A model generated the notes under the pieces. The model had not been told where the DNA came from. It saw nothing but the letters and a program-made list of their open reading frames with translations, and did not search any database. The position numbers were made by a program, and so were the translations under genes. Shown here one piece after another: positions 18,417 to 33,760 of a stretch of 33,760 nucleotides of DNA (positions are counted from its first letter, which is position 1; each line of letters begins with the position of its first letter). Source of the DNA: Kiritimatiellia bacterium (GTDB taxonomy: Bacteria > Verrucomicrobiota > Kiritimatiellia > CAIQIC01 > Lenti-01); the NCBI GenBank assembly GCA_017527155.1, contig JAFXQI010000065.1, positions 1-33,760 on the forward strand. Direction: 5' to 3'.

Positions 18417-18542
18417 TTTTCCGATCATTGGAAAAACATTTCCGGATTTTTCCAACCATTGGAAAAAAGTTTTCCAATCATTGGAAAAAACAAGCCGGAT
18501 TTTCCAACCATTGGAAACTTTTTTTCCAATCATTGGAAAAAT
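18417..18542. repeat. Array of five CCAAYCATTGG palindromes with 52-bp higher-order period
   Basis: Units with cores at 18421 (CCGATCATTGG), 18452 (CCAACCATTGG), 18474 (CCAATCATTGG), 18504 (CCAACCATTGG) and 18526 (CCAATCATTGG), each flanked by T-runs on the left and A-runs on the right. The AACC and AATC versions alternate, so the true unit is a dimer repeated at 52-53 bp. CCGG-containing spacers (TCCGGA, GCCGGA, TCCGGC) lie between dimers. The array is far more AT-rich than its surroundings. Confidence 0.9.
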
Positions 18543-27457: not shown

Positions 27458-28459
27458 ATGAGCAGCACCAGCAGCGGCATCACCGCCATCAACGAAAAAG
27501 TCCAGCAGGAGAGCGCCTTCGTCGCCCCCCTCCGCGCCGAACTCGAAAAAGTCGTCGTCGGCCAGCGCTACATGCTCGACCGCCTTCTCGTCGGCCTCCT
27601 CGCCAACGGCCACATCCTGCTCGAAGGCGTCCCCGGGCTGGCCAAGACCCTCGCCGTCAAGACCCTCGCCGCCGCGCTGGAGACGAGCTTCCGCCGCATC
27701 CAGTTCACGCCGGACCTGCTCCCCGCGGACCTCATCGGCACGCAGATCTACAACCCCAAGACCGGCGACTTCGGCACCCGCAAGGGCCCGGTCTTCGCGA
27801 ACATCGTGCTCGCCGACGAAATCAACCGCGCGCCGGCGAAAGTCCAGTCCGCCCTCCTCGAAGCGATGGAGGAGCGCCAGGTGACGATCGGCCAGGAGAC
27901 CTTCGCGCTGCCGGAGCCGTTCCTGGTCCTCGCCACGCAGAACCCGGTCGAGCAGGAAGGCACGTACCCGCTGCCCGAAGCCCAGGTGGACCGCTTCATG
28001 CTCAAGCTCAAGATCGGCTATCCCACGCTCGACGAAGAGCGCCGCATCCTCGAAGCCAACGCGCGCACGGAAGTCGTCCGCGACGTCCGCCCCGTCGTCA
28101 AGCCCGACACCATCCTCAGGGCGCGCAAGACGGTCGACGCCATCTACGTCGACGACAAGATCAAGGACTACGTCCTCTCGCTCGTCTTCGCCACCCGCAA
28201 CCCGGCCGCCTACAAACTGAACGCCCTTGCCGGCAACATCCGCTACGGCGCCTCCCCGCGCGCCACCCTCGCGCTGATGCTGGCGGCGAAGGCCCACGCC
28301 TTCCTGCAAGGCCGCGGCTACGTCACCCCGCAGGACGTCAAGTCCGTCGCCCCCGACGTCCTCCGCCACCGCATCATCCCCTCCTTCGAAGCCGAAGCCG
28401 AGGAACTCACCGCCGACTCCCTCGTCTCCATCCTCCTCGACGAACTCCCCGTCCCGTAA
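27458..28459 (+). CDS. moxR: MoxR-family AAA+ ATPase
   Basis: 333 residues with AAGGAG 7 nt upstream. MoxR ATPases act as chaperone-like motors with von Willebrand A partners, often in maturation of complexes or envelope stress. Walker A GVPGLAKT (57-64), Walker B VLADEINRA (118-125) and the MoxR-typical ATQNPVEQEGTYPLPEAQVDRF sensor block are present, as is the C-terminal lid with NALAGNIRYGASPRATLAL. The operon partners downstream (DUF58, DUF4381-like, BatA, BatBC) are standard for this family. Confidence 0.97.
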   Translation: MSSTSSGITAINEKVQQESAFVAPLRAELEKVVVGQRYMLDRLLVGLLANGHILLEGVPGLAKTLAVKTLAAALETSFRRIQFTPDLLPADLIGTQIYNPKTGDFGTRKGPVFANIVLADEINRAPAKVQSALLEAMEERQVTIGQETFALPEPFLVLATQNPVEQEGTYPLPEAQVDRFMLKLKIGYPTLDEERRILEANARTEVVRDVRPVVKPDTILRARKTVDAIYVDDKIKDYVLSLVFATRNPAAYKLNALAGNIRYGASPRATLALMLAAKAHAFLQGRGYVTPQDVKSVAPDVLRHRIIPSFEAEAEELTADSLVSILLDELPVP

Positions 28460-28483
28460 CCCGGAAAACACCCCCACCGCATC

Positions 28484-28511
28484 TTTTCACTTTTCTCTTT
28501 TATCTTTTCAC
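28484..28511 (+). repeat. Heptamer array 1 (four TTTTCAC-type units)
   Basis: TTTTCAC, TTTTCTC, TTTTATC, TTTTCAC in the gap between moxR and the DUF58 gene, ending 10 nt before the latter's ATG, where an SD would be expected; no good SD is left. Confidence 0.8.
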
Positions 28512-28521
28512 TGAATATCCC

Positions 28522-29397
28522 ATGCTTCCCCGCGAAACACTCCGCAAAATCCGCCGCATCGAAATCCGCACCCGCCGCGCGGTGCAGGACGTCTTTGCGG
28601 GCCGCTACCATTCGGTCTTCAAGGGCCAGGGCATGGAGTTCGAGGAAGTCCGCGAGTACCAGCCCGGCGACGACATCCGCGCGATCGACTGGAACGTCAC
28701 CGCCCGCACCGGCACCCCCTTCGTGAAAAAATACCGCGAAGAGCGCGAACTGACCCTGATGCTTCTCGTCGACGTCTCCGCCTCCAACCGCTACGGCTCC
28801 GGCGCCATGACCAAGCGCGACCTGGCCGCCGAAGTCGCGGCCACGCTCGCCTTCTCGGCCATCGCCAACCAGGACCGCGTCGGACTGCTCCTCTTCGGCG
28901 ACCGCGTCCAGAAGTTCGTCAAGCCGGCCAAAGGCGTCCCCCACGTCCTGCGCGTCATCTCCGACGTCCTCGAAGCCCCGGCCGCCTCCCGCGCCACCGA
29001 CCTCGCCCCCGCGCTCGACTACCTCAACCGCGTCATCCGCCGCCGTTGCGTCGCCTTCCTGCTCTCCGACTTCCAGGCCCCGCCGTGCGACCGCCTGCTG
29101 CGCGTCACCGCCCGCCGCCACGACCTCGTCAGCCTGGTCGTCGGCGACCCCCGCGAACGCGAACTCGCGCCCGCCGGCATCCTCGACCTCACCGACGCCG
29201 AAACCGGCCGCCGCGTCCTCGTCGACACCACCTCCCCCGCCGTCCGCCGCGCCTACGCCGTCCGCCAGGCCGCCGCCCGCGCCGCCCTCCTCGACCGCCT
29301 CCGCACCGCCCGCAGCGACGCCATCGAACTCTGGACCGACCGCCCCTACGACCGCGAACTCGTCCGCTTCTTCCTCCGCCGCGAGGCCCGCAAATGA
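28522..29397 (+). CDS. DUF58 / von Willebrand A-like protein
   Basis: 291 residues. The DUF58 signature is clear: FKGQGMEFEEVREYQPGDDI (33-52) and RAIDWNVTARTGTPFVKKY (53-71). It continues as a vWA-like domain with a metal site DVSAS (D84, S86, S88). No membrane segment; it is a cytosolic adaptor that in these operons works with MoxR. The stop overlaps the next gene by ATGA (29394-29397). Translation probably depends on a site modified by the heptamer array just upstream. Confidence 0.95.
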   Translation: MLPRETLRKIRRIEIRTRRAVQDVFAGRYHSVFKGQGMEFEEVREYQPGDDIRAIDWNVTARTGTPFVKKYREERELTLMLLVDVSASNRYGSGAMTKRDLAAEVAATLAFSAIANQDRVGLLLFGDRVQKFVKPAKGVPHVLRVISDVLEAPAASRATDLAPALDYLNRVIRRRCVAFLLSDFQAPPCDRLLRVTARRHDLVSLVVGDPRERELAPAGILDLTDAETGRRVLVDTTSPAVRRAYAVRQAAARAALLDRLRTARSDAIELWTDRPYDRELVRFFLRREARK

Positions 29398-30440
29398 AAC
29401 TCCTCTCCATCCTCATCTTTTCACTTTTCACTGTTCACTTTTCACTCGCCGCGCCCTCCCGGCGCCCCGCGCAGCCTTCCCTCGACGCGGCGCCCCTCCT
29501 CTCCGACGAACCCGCCCGCCTGACCGCCACCCTCTCCACCAACACCATCCGCATCGGCGATCCCATCGACCTGACCCTCACCGCCCTCCACCGCCCCGGC
29601 ACCACCATCGACTTCCCGCTCGCCGGCCTCGCTCACGGAAAAGACGTCATCGTCCGCGACACCGCCGCCCCCGAGACCCACCCCGCCGACGGCGGCCTCG
29701 AGCGCACCGTCCGCCACTGCACCCTGACTTCCCTCGTCGTCAGCAACCACGTCATCGCCGAGAACGCCCCCGTCCTCATCCACCTCCCCGACGGCACCAC
29801 CGCCACCCAGTCCATGCCCTTCGCGGCCTTCGAGGTCGTCAGCTCCCTTGAGGAAGGCGAAACCGAGCTCCGCCCCATGGACATGACCCCGGCCCACTGG
29901 CCCGCCCCTCCCTCCCACTGGCTCCTCATCCTCCTCGGCGTCCTCGCCGTCCTCCTCCTCGCCGCGGCCGCCCTCTGGTACTTCGCGCGCCGCGTCACCG
30001 TCGTCCTCGCCAAACCGACGCCCCCGCCCCCGCCGCACGCCACCGCCCTGGCCGCCATCGCCGCCATGCGCGCCGAAGACTGGACCGGCGGCGACAGACA
30101 GGACCCCTTCTTCGTCCGCCTCTCCGCCATCGTCCGCACCTACGTCGAAGCCCGCTTCTCCATCCGCGCCCCCGAACGCACCACCGAAGAATTCATCCGC
30201 GACGCCCTGAAATCCCCCGACCTCACCCCCGCCCACCGCCGCCGCCTCGCCGATTTCCTCGAAACCAGCGACCTCGTCAAATTCGCCTGCCACCGCCCCG
30301 GCACCCCCGAACTCCTCACCGCCCTCGACTCCGCCGAAACCTTCGTCCGCGAAACCATCCCCGCCCCGTCCGCCCCCACCCCGTCCCGCGCGGCGCCGGA
30401 CACGGCGCCGTCCCCCTCCGAGAAAGGAGGCATCCCATGA
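29394..30440 (+). CDS. DUF4381-like membrane protein of the MoxR-Bat operon
   Basis: 348 residues. A signal peptide (MKLLSILIFSLFTVHFSLAA) is followed by an extracytoplasmic beta-rich domain (about 38-150, TATLSTNTIRIGDPIDLTLT, like the BatD Ig-like domain), one membrane segment (about 176-197, HWLLILLGVLAVLLLAAAAL) and a cytoplasmic helical tail (about 215-335). The layout matches DUF4381/BatD-like partners of MoxR operons, so family placement rests on layout and context more than on a unique motif. Its hydrophobic signal core is encoded by four heptamer repeats (29418-29445). It overlaps the DUF58 gene by ATGA. Confidence 0.8.
   Translation: MKLLSILIFSLFTVHFSLAAPSRRPAQPSLDAAPLLSDEPARLTATLSTNTIRIGDPIDLTLTALHRPGTTIDFPLAGLAHGKDVIVRDTAAPETHPADGGLERTVRHCTLTSLVVSNHVIAENAPVLIHLPDGTTATQSMPFAAFEVVSSLEEGETELRPMDMTPAHWPAPPSHWLLILLGVLAVLLLAAAALWYFARRVTVVLAKPTPPPPPHATALAAIAAMRAEDWTGGDRQDPFFVRLSAIVRTYVEARFSIRAPERTTEEFIRDALKSPDLTPAHRRRLADFLETSDLVKFACHRPGTPELLTALDSAETFVRETIPAPSAPTPSRAAPDTAPSPSEKGGIP
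29418..29445 (+). repeat. Heptamer array 2, inside a signal-peptide coding region
   Basis: TTTTCAC, TTTTCAC, TGTTCAC, TTTTCAC in coding sequence; it is translated as FSLFTVHFSL, the hydrophobic core of the signal peptide of the gene at 29394. Confidence 0.8.
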
Positions 30441-30532
30441 TCTCCCTCTCCCTTCTCTCCCAAACTAACCCACCGCCCACTTTTCAGTTGTCACTTTTCA
30501 CTTTTCACTCGTCGCCGGAGGCCCAGCCATGA
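30437..30532 (+). CDS. Possible 31-residue coupling ORF between the DUF4381-like gene and batA
   Basis: ATG at 30437 overlaps the upstream stop (ATGA), and its TGA at 30530-30532 overlaps the batA ATG (ATGA again). GGAGG lies 7 nt before its start. The peptide MISLSLLSQTNPPPTFQLSL... is mostly heptamer-repeat translation. Its start block (GGAGGCATCC-CATGATCTCC) resembles the batA start block (GGAGGCCCAG-CCATGATTTCC), so it probably arose by duplication of the batA start during repeat insertion. It may be translated only to pass ribosomes on. Confidence 0.4.
   Translation: MISLSLLSQTNPPPTFQLSLFTFHSSPEAQP
30481..30508 (+). repeat. Heptamer array 3 (before batA)
   Basis: TTTTCAG, TTGTCAC, TTTTCAC, TTTTCAC, preceded by AACCCACCGCCCAC, the same lead-in as array 4. 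Confidence 0.8.
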
Positions 30533-31536
30533 TTTCCTTCGCAAACCCCTGGCTTCTCCTCCTGCTTCTCCTCGTCCCCCCGGCGACGTACCTCCTCCAC
30601 ACCCCCCGCCGCCGCGCCACCCTCCACTTCTCCGACGCCACCCCCCTGGCGGCCCTGCCGACCACCCCGCGCCTCGTCCTCCTCCGCTGGCTGCCGCCGA
30701 CCCTCACCGCCCTTGCGCTCGTCCTCCTCGTACTGGCCGCCGCCCGTCCCCGCCGCGGCATCGCCGAATCCCGCGCCCGCACCGAAGGCGTGGACATCGT
30801 CCTGCTCGTCGACACCTCCACCTCCATGAACGCCGACGACCTCTCCACGCGCACCCAGCGCCTTACGCGCCTCGACGCCGCCAAGAAAGTCATCGCCCAA
30901 TTCGTGCGCGACCGCACCGACGACCGCATCGGCCTGGTCGCCTTCGCGGCCATGCCCTACACCCTGGCCCCCCTCACCACCGACCACGAATGGCTCCTCC
31001 TCCAGATGGACCGCCTCCAGACCGGAATGCTCGAAGACGGCACCGCCATCGGCGACGCCATCGCCTCCGGCGTCAACCGCCTGCGCGACTCCGAAGCCAA
31101 GAGCAAAGTCCTCGTCCTGCTGACCGACGGCATCCACAACGCCGGCCAGCTCGCCCCGCGCGACGCCGCGCAGGCCGCCGCGGCCCTCGGCATCAAGATC
31201 TACTGCGTCGGCGCCGCCTCCGACCGCCCCCAGAGCGGCGGCTTCTTCGGCCTCGCCCTGCCCGCGCCGGAGATCGACGAAGACACCCTCCGCTCCGTCG
31301 CCACCGCCACCGACGCCGCCTACTTCCGCGCCACCGACGCCGCCTACTTCCGCGCCACCGACCTCGACTCCCTCGCCGCCACCTACGAAAAAATCGACGC
31401 CATGGAAAAAACCGAAATCGAACTCTCCTCCTACACCCGCCACGAAGACATCTTCGCCCTCCCGGCCCTCCTCGCCCTCCTCCTGCTGGCCGCCGAAGCC
31501 GTCCTCTCTGGCACCATCCTCGGGAGGCTCCCATGA
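30529..31536 (+). CDS. batA: BatA-like von Willebrand A membrane protein
   Basis: 335 residues. Two N-terminal membrane segments (about 7-22 and 54-71), a vWA domain (about 88-300) with the metal site DTSTS (D95, S97, S99) and LLTDGIHNAG, and one C-terminal membrane segment (about 308-327). The fold faces the periplasm and is thought to mediate protein-protein contacts under MoxR control. GGAGG lies 12 nt before the ATG. An 8-residue block, DAAYFRAT, occurs twice in tandem (31312-31335 and 31336-31359 are identical), a recent duplication. The stop overlaps the next start by ATGA. Confidence 0.94.
   Translation: MISFANPWLLLLLLLVPPATYLLHTPRRRATLHFSDATPLAALPTTPRLVLLRWLPPTLTALALVLLVLAAARPRRGIAESRARTEGVDIVLLVDTSTSMNADDLSTRTQRLTRLDAAKKVIAQFVRDRTDDRIGLVAFAAMPYTLAPLTTDHEWLLLQMDRLQTGMLEDGTAIGDAIASGVNRLRDSEAKSKVLVLLTDGIHNAGQLAPRDAAQAAAALGIKIYCVGAASDRPQSGGFFGLALPAPEIDEDTLRSVATATDAAYFRATDAAYFRATDLDSLAATYEKIDAMEKTEIELSSYTRHEDIFALPALLALLLLAAEAVLSGTILGRLP
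31312..31359 (+). repeat. 24-bp perfect tandem duplication in batA
   Basis: 31312-31335 and 31336-31359 are identical; the product gains one extra copy of DAAYFRAT in the vWA domain. The frame is kept. Confidence 0.9.
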
Positions 31537-33404
31537 ACTGGGGCGCCCCGCACATCCTCTGGCTCCTCCTCGCCCTCCCCGTCTGGCTCTGGGCCGCCCA
31601 CCGCCTCCTCCGCGCCCGCCGGCGCCGCCTCGCCGCGTGGGTCGACGAAAAAAACGCCCCCTTCCTCCTTCCCGGACGCAACCCCGCTGCCGCCGCCCGC
31701 CGCATCTGGCTGCGCACCCTCGCCCTCGCCTGCCTCATCCTCGCCCTGGCGCGCCCCCAATGGGGGTTCCACTGGGAAGAAATCACCCGCCGCGGCCTCG
31801 ACCTCCTCGTCGTCCTCGACACCTCCCGCTCCATGACCGCCGCCGACATCAAACCCTCGCGTCTCCAGCAGGCCAAATGGGGCATCCACGACCTCCTGCG
31901 GGCCCTGCGCGGCGACCGCGTCGGCCTCATTCCCTTCGCCGGGTCCAGCCTGCTCCAGTGCCCTCTCACCACCGACTACGCCGCCTTCGCCATGACCCTC
32001 GACGACCTCTACTGCGGCATCATCCCCCGCGGCGGAACCGCCATCGCGCAAGCCCTGCGCACCGCCATCGACTCCTTCCCCAACGACACCACCGCCGACC
32101 GCTGCATCCTCCTCGTCACCGACGGCGAAGACCACGAAGGCGACCCCCTGTCCCTCCTCCCCGAACTCAAAGAAAAAGGCATCCGCTTGTACGCCATCGG
32201 CATCGGCACCCTCGAAGGCGAAATGATCCCCGGCGACGCCTCCACCGGCTCCGCCTACTTCAAAGACCGCAAAGGCCAGATCGTCAAGACCACCCTCCAC
32301 GAAGACATCCTCCAGCAGCTCGCCACCTCCACCGGCGGCGCCTACGTCCGTTCCGCCGCCGGCGACACCGGCCTCGAGCGCGTCTTCCGCGAATCCATCG
32401 ACAAACTCAAACGCACCGAAGCCGAATCCCGCACCGCCCGCATCAACGAAGAACGCTTCCAGTGGCCCCTCCTCCTCTCCCTCCTCCTCCTCCTCCTCGA
32501 ATCCCTCACCCCCGACCGCTCTGTCGGAGCGCGGGCGGCCCGCCCGCTTTTCCAAAACAAATCAGCCTCTTTCATCATCATCCTCGCCACCCTCCCCCTC
32601 CTCTCCCCCGCTCCCGCTCGCGCCCAATCCCCCCGCCCCCTCTTCACCGCCGGCCTCGCCGACCTGGCCGCCTCCAACTACCCCTCCGCCGCCTCCAACT
32701 TCCTGGCCGCGGCCGAACTCGCCCCCACCAACAACCTCCCCGCGGCCCCGGCCCTCTACAACGCCGCCCTTGCGACCGCGGCCGCCGGCGACCCCGACGC
32801 CGCCTCCACCCTCCTCGCCGAATCCGCCCGTGCCATTCCCGACCTCGACGCCCAAGCCCGCGCCTACTACAACCGCGGCAACACCCTCTACGCCCTTTCC
32901 GACGCCGACCCGACCTCCACCAACGCCCCCGCCCTGATCGCCGAAGCCCTCCAATCCTACGAAAACGCCATCGCCCTCGCACCCTCCGCCCCCGACTACA
33001 AAGCCAACTACGAACTCGCCCTCCTCAAACAACAACAAATCCAGCAGCAACAGCAGCAGCAGCAACAGCAACAGAACAAAGACCAATCCCAAGACCAGCA
33101 AAACCAAGACCAATCCTCCTCCGACGACCAGCAGCAATCCCAGCAACAAGACCAGCAGCAGGAGCAACAGCAGGAGCAACAGGAGCAAGCCCAGCAACAA
33201 TCCCAATCTCAATCCCAAGAGTCTCAAGAATCCCAAGAATCCCAGCAGCAATCCCAGCAGCAATCCCAAGAGCCCCCCTCCGAGCAAATGACCCCCGAAG
33301 AAGCCACCCAACTCCTCGACGCCATGCGTGCCCGCGAACAATCCCAGCGCGACCAACTCAAACCCCTCTTCGGCCGTCCCATCCCCGTCGAAAACGACTG
33401 GTGA
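31533..33404 (+). CDS. batB: BatB-BatC fusion: vWA membrane protein with TPR and Gln-rich C-terminus
   Basis: 623 residues. Residues 1-325 are BatB: two N-terminal membrane segments (about 7-22 and 59-74), a vWA domain with DTSRS (D96, S98, S100) and LVTDGEDHEGD, and a membrane segment (about 309-325, FQWPLLLSLLLLLLESL). Then comes a junction with a GC hairpin (32531-32547), and directly after it a second signal-peptide-like stretch (SASFIIILATLPLLSPAPARAQ). From there, residues about 365-500 are TPR-like (BatC), 500-586 a Gln-rich tract (CAG/CAA/CAR runs), and the end is the BatC-like EEATQLLDAMRAREQSQRDQLKP. The second signal looks like the relic of a separate batC gene. It may now act as an extra membrane segment. 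Confidence 0.9.
   Translation: MNWGAPHILWLLLALPVWLWAAHRLLRARRRRLAAWVDEKNAPFLLPGRNPAAAARRIWLRTLALACLILALARPQWGFHWEEITRRGLDLLVVLDTSRSMTAADIKPSRLQQAKWGIHDLLRALRGDRVGLIPFAGSSLLQCPLTTDYAAFAMTLDDLYCGIIPRGGTAIAQALRTAIDSFPNDTTADRCILLVTDGEDHEGDPLSLLPELKEKGIRLYAIGIGTLEGEMIPGDASTGSAYFKDRKGQIVKTTLHEDILQQLATSTGGAYVRSAAGDTGLERVFRESIDKLKRTEAESRTARINEERFQWPLLLSLLLLLLESLTPDRSVGARAARPLFQNKSASFIIILATLPLLSPAPARAQSPRPLFTAGLADLAASNYPSAASNFLAAAELAPTNNLPAAPALYNAALATAAAGDPDAASTLLAESARAIPDLDAQARAYYNRGNTLYALSDADPTSTNAPALIAEALQSYENAIALAPSAPDYKANYELALLKQQQIQQQQQQQQQQQNKDQSQDQQNQDQSSSDDQQQSQQQDQQQEQQQEQQEQAQQQSQSQSQESQESQESQQQSQQQSQEPPSEQMTPEEATQLLDAMRAREQSQRDQLKPLFGRPIPVENDW
32531..32547. repeat. GC hairpin at the BatB-BatC junction
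   Basis: GCGGGCG-GCC-CGCCCGC, perfect 7-bp stem, in frame between the BatB and BatC parts (encoding GARAARPL). It looks like an intergenic palindrome read through after the genes joined. Confidence 0.65.
33030..33290 (+). repeat. Gln-rich low-complexity tract in batBC
   Basis: Runs of CAG/CAA codons with interspersed GAC, GAG, TCC and TCT give QQQ, QDQ, QEQ and SQES runs of about 85 residues. Shared short units (AGTCTCAAGA/ATCCCAAGA) suggest slippage-driven length change. Confidence 0.8.
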
Positions 33405-33440
33405 GCCCCCATGCCCCTTTTTCCCCCCATCCCTCCTGAC

Positions 33441-33459
33441 GGCGGGCGGTCCGCCCGCC
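33441..33459 (+). terminator. Perfect hairpin after batBC
   Basis: GGCGGGCGG and CCGCCCGCC form a 9-bp stem around a single T, 36 nt past the batBC stop. No U-tract. It could be a transcript-end or processing structure, or another member of the dispersed palindromes. Confidence 0.5.
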
Positions 33460-33687
33460 GCCCCCCCACTTTCCCCTTCCCCCACCACCCCCAACCCACT
33501 ATCCTCCCTCCCACCATGAACCCACCATCCACCACCACCACCCACCCGCACCCCACCCGCACCTCGGGGGCTCGGGGGCTCCGCCCCCGTCCCTTGCACC
33601 ACCCCCTCCGCCCTCCCTCCCGCTCCCCCTCCACCCCACTCTCCACCCCCCCCTCCTCCCGTTTCCCCAACACAACCCACCGCCCAC

Positions 33688-33715
33688 TCGTCACTCGTCA
33701 CTCGTCACTCGTCAC
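33688..33715 (+). repeat. Heptamer array 4 (four TCGTCAC units)
   Basis: Four identical TCGTCAC units preceded by AACCCACCGCCCAC as in array 3. The bases differ from TTTTCAC in the second and third positions only. Confidence 0.85.
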
Positions 33716-33741
33716 TCTCTTCCCCCTCGTCCTCCTCTCTC

Positions 33742-33760
33742 TTTTCACTTTTCACTTTTC
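33742..33760 (+). repeat. Heptamer array 5 (cut by window edge)
   Basis: TTTTCAC, TTTTCAC, then TTTTC at the edge. It again sits where the start of a next gene would be expected. Confidence 0.75.

Follow-up and report, generated by a model that had tools for sequence, protein, structure and literature searches.

Dispersed arrays of four heptads at gene boundaries in a Kiritimatiellia bacterium

Introduction

Why should a single operon carry short arrays of a 7-nt repeat at one gene junction after another? The window analyzed here is one whole contig (C46) of 33,760 bases, taken from a 3.23-Mb draft genome of 114 contigs. Its operon has the order MoxR, DUF58, DUF4381-like, BatA, and BatB/TPR. 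An initial annotation listed five TTTTCAC arrays along this operon and attributed them to a dispersed, mobile, or gene-conversion-spread repeat rather than to chance. The arrays were compared with the rest of the genome, with a congener, and with more distant bacteria. Gene starts were taken from a simple caller written for this analysis, about a quarter of the window genome was read, and the genomes are drafts, including that of the one congener.

Results

Arrays in the operon

All five arrays were confirmed in place. The arrays, their leads, and the adjoining genes are as follows.

28474 to 28483, forward strand: lead of array 1, CCACCGCATC (sequence)
28484 to 28511, forward strand: array 1, TTTTCAC-TTTTCTC-TTTTATC-TTTTCAC, four heptads of which the two middle ones are degenerate
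28522 to 29397, forward strand: DUF58 gene, downstream of array 1 (Pfam PF01882, E = 1e-72)
29394 to 30440, forward strand: DUF4381-like gene (translation; the match to Pfam PF14316 is weak and below the cut-off)
29418 to 29445, forward strand: array 2, four heptads, the third being TGTTCAC, within the signal-peptide codons of the DUF4381-like gene
30467 to 30480, forward strand: lead of array 3, AACCCACCGCCCAC (sequence)
30481 to 30508, forward strand: array 3, four heptads, with changes in the first two (TTTTCAG, TTGTCAC), and a remnant TCGTCGC
30529 to 31536, forward strand: batA (VWA, BatA N-terminal domain)
33516 to 33760, forward strand: start of BatD, truncated by the contig end and holding arrays 4 and 5 (translated from the window, and from the complete gene in the congener)
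33601 to 33720, forward strand: 120-bp in-frame block of lead and TCGTCAC x4, present in the window BatD and missing in the congener (alignment)
33674 to 33687, forward strand: lead of array 4, AACCCACCGCCCAC (sequence)
33688 to 33715, forward strand: array 4, TCGTCAC x4
33742 to 33760, forward strand: array 5, two units and TTTTC before the contig ends, thus at least two heptads

The reported count of four units holds for each of arrays 1 to 4, although units are partly degenerate or altered in arrays 1 to 3, and the unit of array 4 is TCGTCAC rather than TTTTCAC. Arrays 3 and 4 do have an identical lead-in. The positions before DUF58, in the DUF4381-like start, and before batA also stand. 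Arrays 4 and 5, however, do not simply follow batBC. In the congener, the operon genes are followed by BatD (complete gene, Pfam BatD E = 1e-22) and then by a TPR protein that we read as BatE-like (L071), and because this continuation places BatD next, both arrays lie in the N-terminal coding region of BatD.

Ten nucleotides separate array 1 from the DUF58 start codon, and the array keeps its four units in the congener with one base changed. A Shine-Dalgarno (SD) sequence, GGAGG, lies between array 3 and the batA start; the congener has TTTTCAC x4 at this position, with the number four retained and two units changed. Both array-to-start spacings, 10 nt and 20 nt, are retained in the congener. 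Array 2 encodes part of the signal peptide MKLLSILIFSLFTVHFSLAAP of the DUF4381-like protein (translation). It is missing from the congener, where a GACAATTCC palindrome stands in its place and gives a lipoprotein-like signal. Array 5 is retained in the congener as TTTTCAC-TTTTCTC-TTTTCTC-TTTTCTC and encodes the core of the BatD signal peptide. Signal-peptide cores are array-coded in three genes of the operon: the DUF4381-like gene (window genome), BatD (both genomes), and the TPR protein (congener). No known RNA family matched positions 28000 to 33760 of the window up to E = 1.

Several other repeats were observed alongside the arrays. The congener's DUF4381-like gene (L343, 6856 to 6950) starts with the GACAATTCC palindromic repeat, not with a heptad-coded signal. 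A second dispersed family, of TTTTCCAAnnATTGGAAAAA palindromes, occurs in the window at 18417 to 18541, and palindromes of this type are found in the DUF4381 N-termini of relatives (L361, L365, and L366) at the same signal-peptide position as array 2. A GC-rich palindromic repeat, GTCGGAGCGCGGGCGGCCCGCCCGC, lies within the batB/TPR reading frame (32523 to 32547) and is intergenic elsewhere (L048, 1504 to 1530, 3246 to 3272, and 4730 to 4756). Inside batA, a 24-bp segment is perfectly duplicated in tandem and in frame, in 2.4 copies (31305 to 31362).

Dispersal and format of the element

With one mismatch allowed, the search pattern (TNNTCAC)3 gave 7 matches in the window and 0 in 100 dinucleotide shuffles, which rules out a chance origin. 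The reversed pattern was unusable as a control because it is the same repeat in a different phase. A genome-wide search for TNNTCAC arrays, the check proposed at the outset, found them well outside the operon: the exact three-unit pattern has 44 + 36 matches in the window genome, or ~42 arrays on more than 20 contigs, and 65 + 41 matches in the single congener, at unrelated genes. The arrays mark gene boundaries in general, not one operon. They are neither restricted to this operon nor fully conserved, and the reading as an operon-specific signal is ruled out by the genome-wide arrays. Dispersal of the element is thus supported, as the initial annotation had claimed. Elsewhere in the family, TNNTCAC arrays are few in two other genera and absent from the remaining genomes; a relative from the same order (G019) has its own TGATCAC version.

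The arrays have a constant format. Exactly four units were found in 41 of 52 arrays in 789 kb of the window genome and in 45 of 62 in 474 kb of the congener, where the totals are arrays of at least two units and the regions examined are enriched for arrays. Of 79 four-unit arrays, 69 have CCGC in the 12 nt preceding the array, compared with 11.9% of random intergenic 12-mers. The usual lead is CCACCGC followed by ATC, AAAC, CCAC, or AAC. Leads of CG-only arrays are mostly AAAC, CCAC, or CTC, and TG-mixed arrays have ATC leads, often with GC-rich hairpins on both sides. Heptads of other types (TTCTTCC, TCGTCTC, and TGGTCAC) follow this lead as well. Given that most arrays combine the constant lead with a count of four, the element is both longer and more tightly constrained than a run of heptamers alone would be. 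Period 7 dominates the intergenic tandem repeats of the window genome, with 60 arrays against 1 to 19 for periods 5, 6, and 8 to 11. The units TTTTCAC, TCGTCAC, TTGTCAC, and TCTTCAC contain GGG on neither strand.

Position relative to genes

Arrays are polar with respect to the neighboring gene. The median distance to coding sequence was 24 nt from the array end and 164 nt from the lead end in the window genome (P = 0.012), and 26 nt and 210 nt in the congener (P = 4e-6). This near/far polarity was seen both at start codons, with the array in sense, and at stop codons of convergent genes, with the array in antisense. Fourteen arrays in the window genome end less than 30 nt from a start codon (5 to 28 nt, most 5 to 21 nt). 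An SD sequence was found in 2 of these 14 leaders versus 45% elsewhere (P = 0.018), a depletion that applies to only some of the arrays and is partly trivial because the array occupies the space; in the congener, 3 of 9 near-start array leaders have one. Array leaders also fold more weakly (-3.6 versus -8.3 kcal/mol, P = 6e-4).

TG-type arrays in the congener are oriented 17 sense and 16 antisense, with many antisense copies at gene 3' ends, which rules out a purely sense-oriented mRNA element for this type. Outward-pointing inverted pairs were found in both genomes (L048, L350, and L339), with spacers that vary from 46 to 301 nt in this genus; most window-type arrays are single. On one 5.1-kb contig (C90, L048), two genes, presumably encoding a DUF4143-like ATPase and a DUF1016-like protein, are each flanked by inward-pointing arrays, and the intergenic regions consist of shared repeat modules. 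Mobile gene cassettes bounded by arrays, which this contig suggests, are not a general rule: the array-flanked genes checked were mostly ordinary (AcrB, lipid A acyltransferase, HPr kinase, and TP methylase) and had no functional theme.

Turnover between congeners

Whole arrays differ between the window genome and its congener. A 69-bp block of lead and TCGTCAC x4 before an rsmI-like gene is cleanly missing in the congener; a 9-nt CTAG-containing repeat lies immediately upstream of this block (L045, 9780 to 9815). At other junctions, the flanks are intact up to the array and the array itself is swapped, as in TTTTCAC/TTGTCAC x5 versus TCGTCTC-TCGTCAC-TCGTC and TTTTCAC x4 versus (TTCTTCC)3-TTCTTAC. 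In one inverted pair, both arms changed array type together. Where both genomes have an array at an aligned site (13 pairs), the unit number agrees in 11 and differs by one or two heptads in the other two.

With two genomes compared, insertion and deletion are indistinguishable. No target duplication is evident at the 69-bp and 120-bp blocks, the two sites available, neither of which is polarized as insertion or deletion. The mobile or gene-conversion origin first proposed has only partial and indirect support, from the clean presence/absence blocks and from en-bloc swaps with conserved flanks; no donor copy or copying enzyme was identified in this comparison of two genomes.

Period-7 arrays in other genera and phyla

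An intergenic period-7 peak is also present in G006 (CTGAACC) and G019 (CTGATCA) and is weak in G017 (CTGAAAC, few loci). No period-7 intergenic arrays were found in 50 kb of Escherichia coli, and at most one in G018. At the DUF58 leader, arrays with a lag-7 score of at least 10 occur in 8 of 24 lineages, with our own genus counted once. Their units are unrelated between lineages (ATTCTTA in G016, CTGAACC in G006, AATATTG in G008, TTTCAGG in G019, GAGGTCA in G026, and others), and most end 0 to 13 nt before the ATG. Against a background of 10 lag-7 arrays at 410 gene starts (G006, G017, and G018), the enrichment has a binomial P of 6e-8, or 9e-7 without our own genus (7 of 23) and ~1e-4 by genus as a rough estimate, values that are indicative only because the junction was chosen where the finding lay and congeneric species are not fully independent. 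Several g6 species (L430, L432, and L367) have octad arrays, NNNTTCCA, and no heptads at the DUF58 leader; the period itself can therefore differ between close species.

A search of the genome collection for exact TYKTCAC x4 gave at least 120 matching stretches, mostly from Prevotella and other Bacteroidales, with further ones from Acidobacteria, Verrucomicrobia, Clostridia, and other groups; 84 stretches of viral contigs matched as well. As only four-unit arrays could match, this search is no measure of the four-unit mode in these groups. In Prevotella, many of the four-heptad arrays are arranged as outward inverted pairs with 37 to 64 nt between them, either immediately following a stop codon or shortly ahead of a box resembling TAnnTTTG, the promoter box consensus. 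Outward four-heptad pairs with this spacing, placed downstream of a stop codon and ahead of the following promoter, were observed at L150, L134, L110, and L113 (Prevotella and other Bacteroidales). One Prevotella pair was folded and forms a long hairpin (z = -7).

Discussion

Comparison with known repeats

Dispersed heptameric repeats are known as a class; what is new here is the separation of the heptad format from its sequence. No published match for this heptamer itself was found in the literature. The short tandemly repeated repetitive (STRR) heptamers of cyanobacteria are dispersed heptanucleotide repeats as well and differ in unit sequence. REP/MITE-type elements are short, dispersed, extragenic, and partly palindromic and paired, and the arrays share all of these traits, but their core is a direct heptad tetramer and single copies are common.

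The closest parallels are two heptamer families. The GGGNATC repeats of Xanthomonas and Nostoc (Rehm et al. 2015) likewise have period 7, are dispersed and mostly intergenic, prefer four units, and form inverted pairs (PMC4692102). Their geometry also matches, with an ORF at an average of 28 nt on one side and 160 nt on the other, compared with 24 and 164 nt here. They are G-rich and form quadruplexes, to which the authors tie the four units (PMC4692102). The units described here lack G-tracts on either strand, and quadruplexes therefore cannot explain the number four here, nor be a general explanation for it. For 90% of GGGNATC repeats, the flanking ORFs are the same in both species (PMC4692102), whereas many of our arrays are absent or swapped in the congener. 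The TAACTGA direct repeats of marine Beggiatoaceae (MacGregor 2015) occur in two to six copies with a strong forward bias and were suggested as regulatory binding sites (PMC4679880). They too are heptamers with rare SD sequences and no functional theme, mostly just before start codons, a position that part of our arrays share. They differ in unit and in orientation, as the TG-type arrays have no forward bias, and no constant lead was reported for them.

Origin of the arrays

On balance, we favor the reading that the arrays are copies of a lineage-specific dispersed heptad element, spread en bloc and reused as unstructured leaders or signal-peptide codons. The element would consist of a lead (CCACCGC plus 2 to 4 nt ending in C), four pyrimidine-rich heptads, and a T, and would sit at gene boundaries with its array end facing the coding sequence, often in outward-pointing inverted pairs. 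Copies may have been spread and overwritten en bloc, through recombination or gene conversion or because lead and array were copied together, and slippage would now and then have changed them by one or two heptads. They would be tolerated, and partly kept, where, in a genome of 68% GC, a G-poor, weakly structured stretch just before the start codon helps ribosomes to load with no SD sequence, or where the repeat happens to encode a hydrophobic signal-peptide core. The antisense TG-type arrays at gene 3' ends count against a leader role, which leaves them unexplained.

The simplest alternative is that the arrays are ordinary slippage microsatellites, grown in place as the polymerase slipped over a 7-nt footprint, with no spreading and no function. 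Among bacterial repeats of 5 to 11 nt, heptamers are the commonest, and a slippage mechanism acting at 7 nt has been put forward (cited in PMC4679880 and PMC4692102), period 7 dominates the intergenic tandem repeats here, and the two aligned pairs of unequal length are what slippage would leave. Yet unit number is sharply peaked at four instead of spread, and the constant lead stands ahead of different heptads. This fixed lead and the swaps, in which lead and array are present, absent, or exchanged as a whole, argue against pure slippage, and we regard it as unlikely. Clean empty sites, outward inverted pairs (in this genus and in Prevotella, with one hairpin), flanking GC hairpins, and four Y1_Tnp matches in the window genome (three above the cut-off) would fit a MITE/REP-like non-autonomous mobile element, with heptad arrays as its inverted ends and single arrays as decayed halves. 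Most window-type copies, however, have no partner, pair spacers vary widely, and no target duplication is evident at the two clean blocks, so that this origin seems quite improbable.

Selection at each gene for a site bound by a specific DNA- or RNA-binding protein, through S1-type leader binding or Rho loading, for example, could account for the tight spacing of most near arrays to start codons, including the spacings kept in the congener, and has its precedent in the proposal for TAACTGA repeats. We give it little credence: orthologous junctions swap or lose the heptad, unrelated heptads occupy the DUF58 leader in other genera of the order, antisense copies lie at gene ends, and the genes share no theme. 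That heptads are exchanged freely at one and the same gene also speaks against a protein with a sequence-specific site. A further idea, which we think very unlikely, is that the format and not the sequence is written: a dedicated process would insert a genome-specific 7-nt word in fours at gene boundaries, so that the word turns over and the place and format persist. RNA-templated synthesis of tandem repeats of a DRT10-like kind is a candidate for such writing. DRT10 is a telomerase-like phage-defense reverse transcriptase with a 9-nt periodicity in one system and a motif whose length and sequence vary between systems (PMC12632851). A motif scan of 587 + 341 predicted genes, about a quarter of the genome, found no reverse transcriptase near the arrays. 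If true, templated writing would explain four-unit heptads that are not G-rich in distant phyla without quadruplexes or slippage.

Implications

The preference of bacterial heptamers for four units has so far been read as a sign of quadruplexes; here, the same preference, polarity, and inverted pairs occur in heptads unable to form one. Because congeners swap whole arrays and keep their place, the question of why seven, why four, and why gene edges becomes separable from sequence and testable at orthologous junctions. For the dispersed element that we favor, the recruitment of arrays into ordinary genes, as leaders or as signal-peptide codons, may represent a cheap route to new gene 5' ends.
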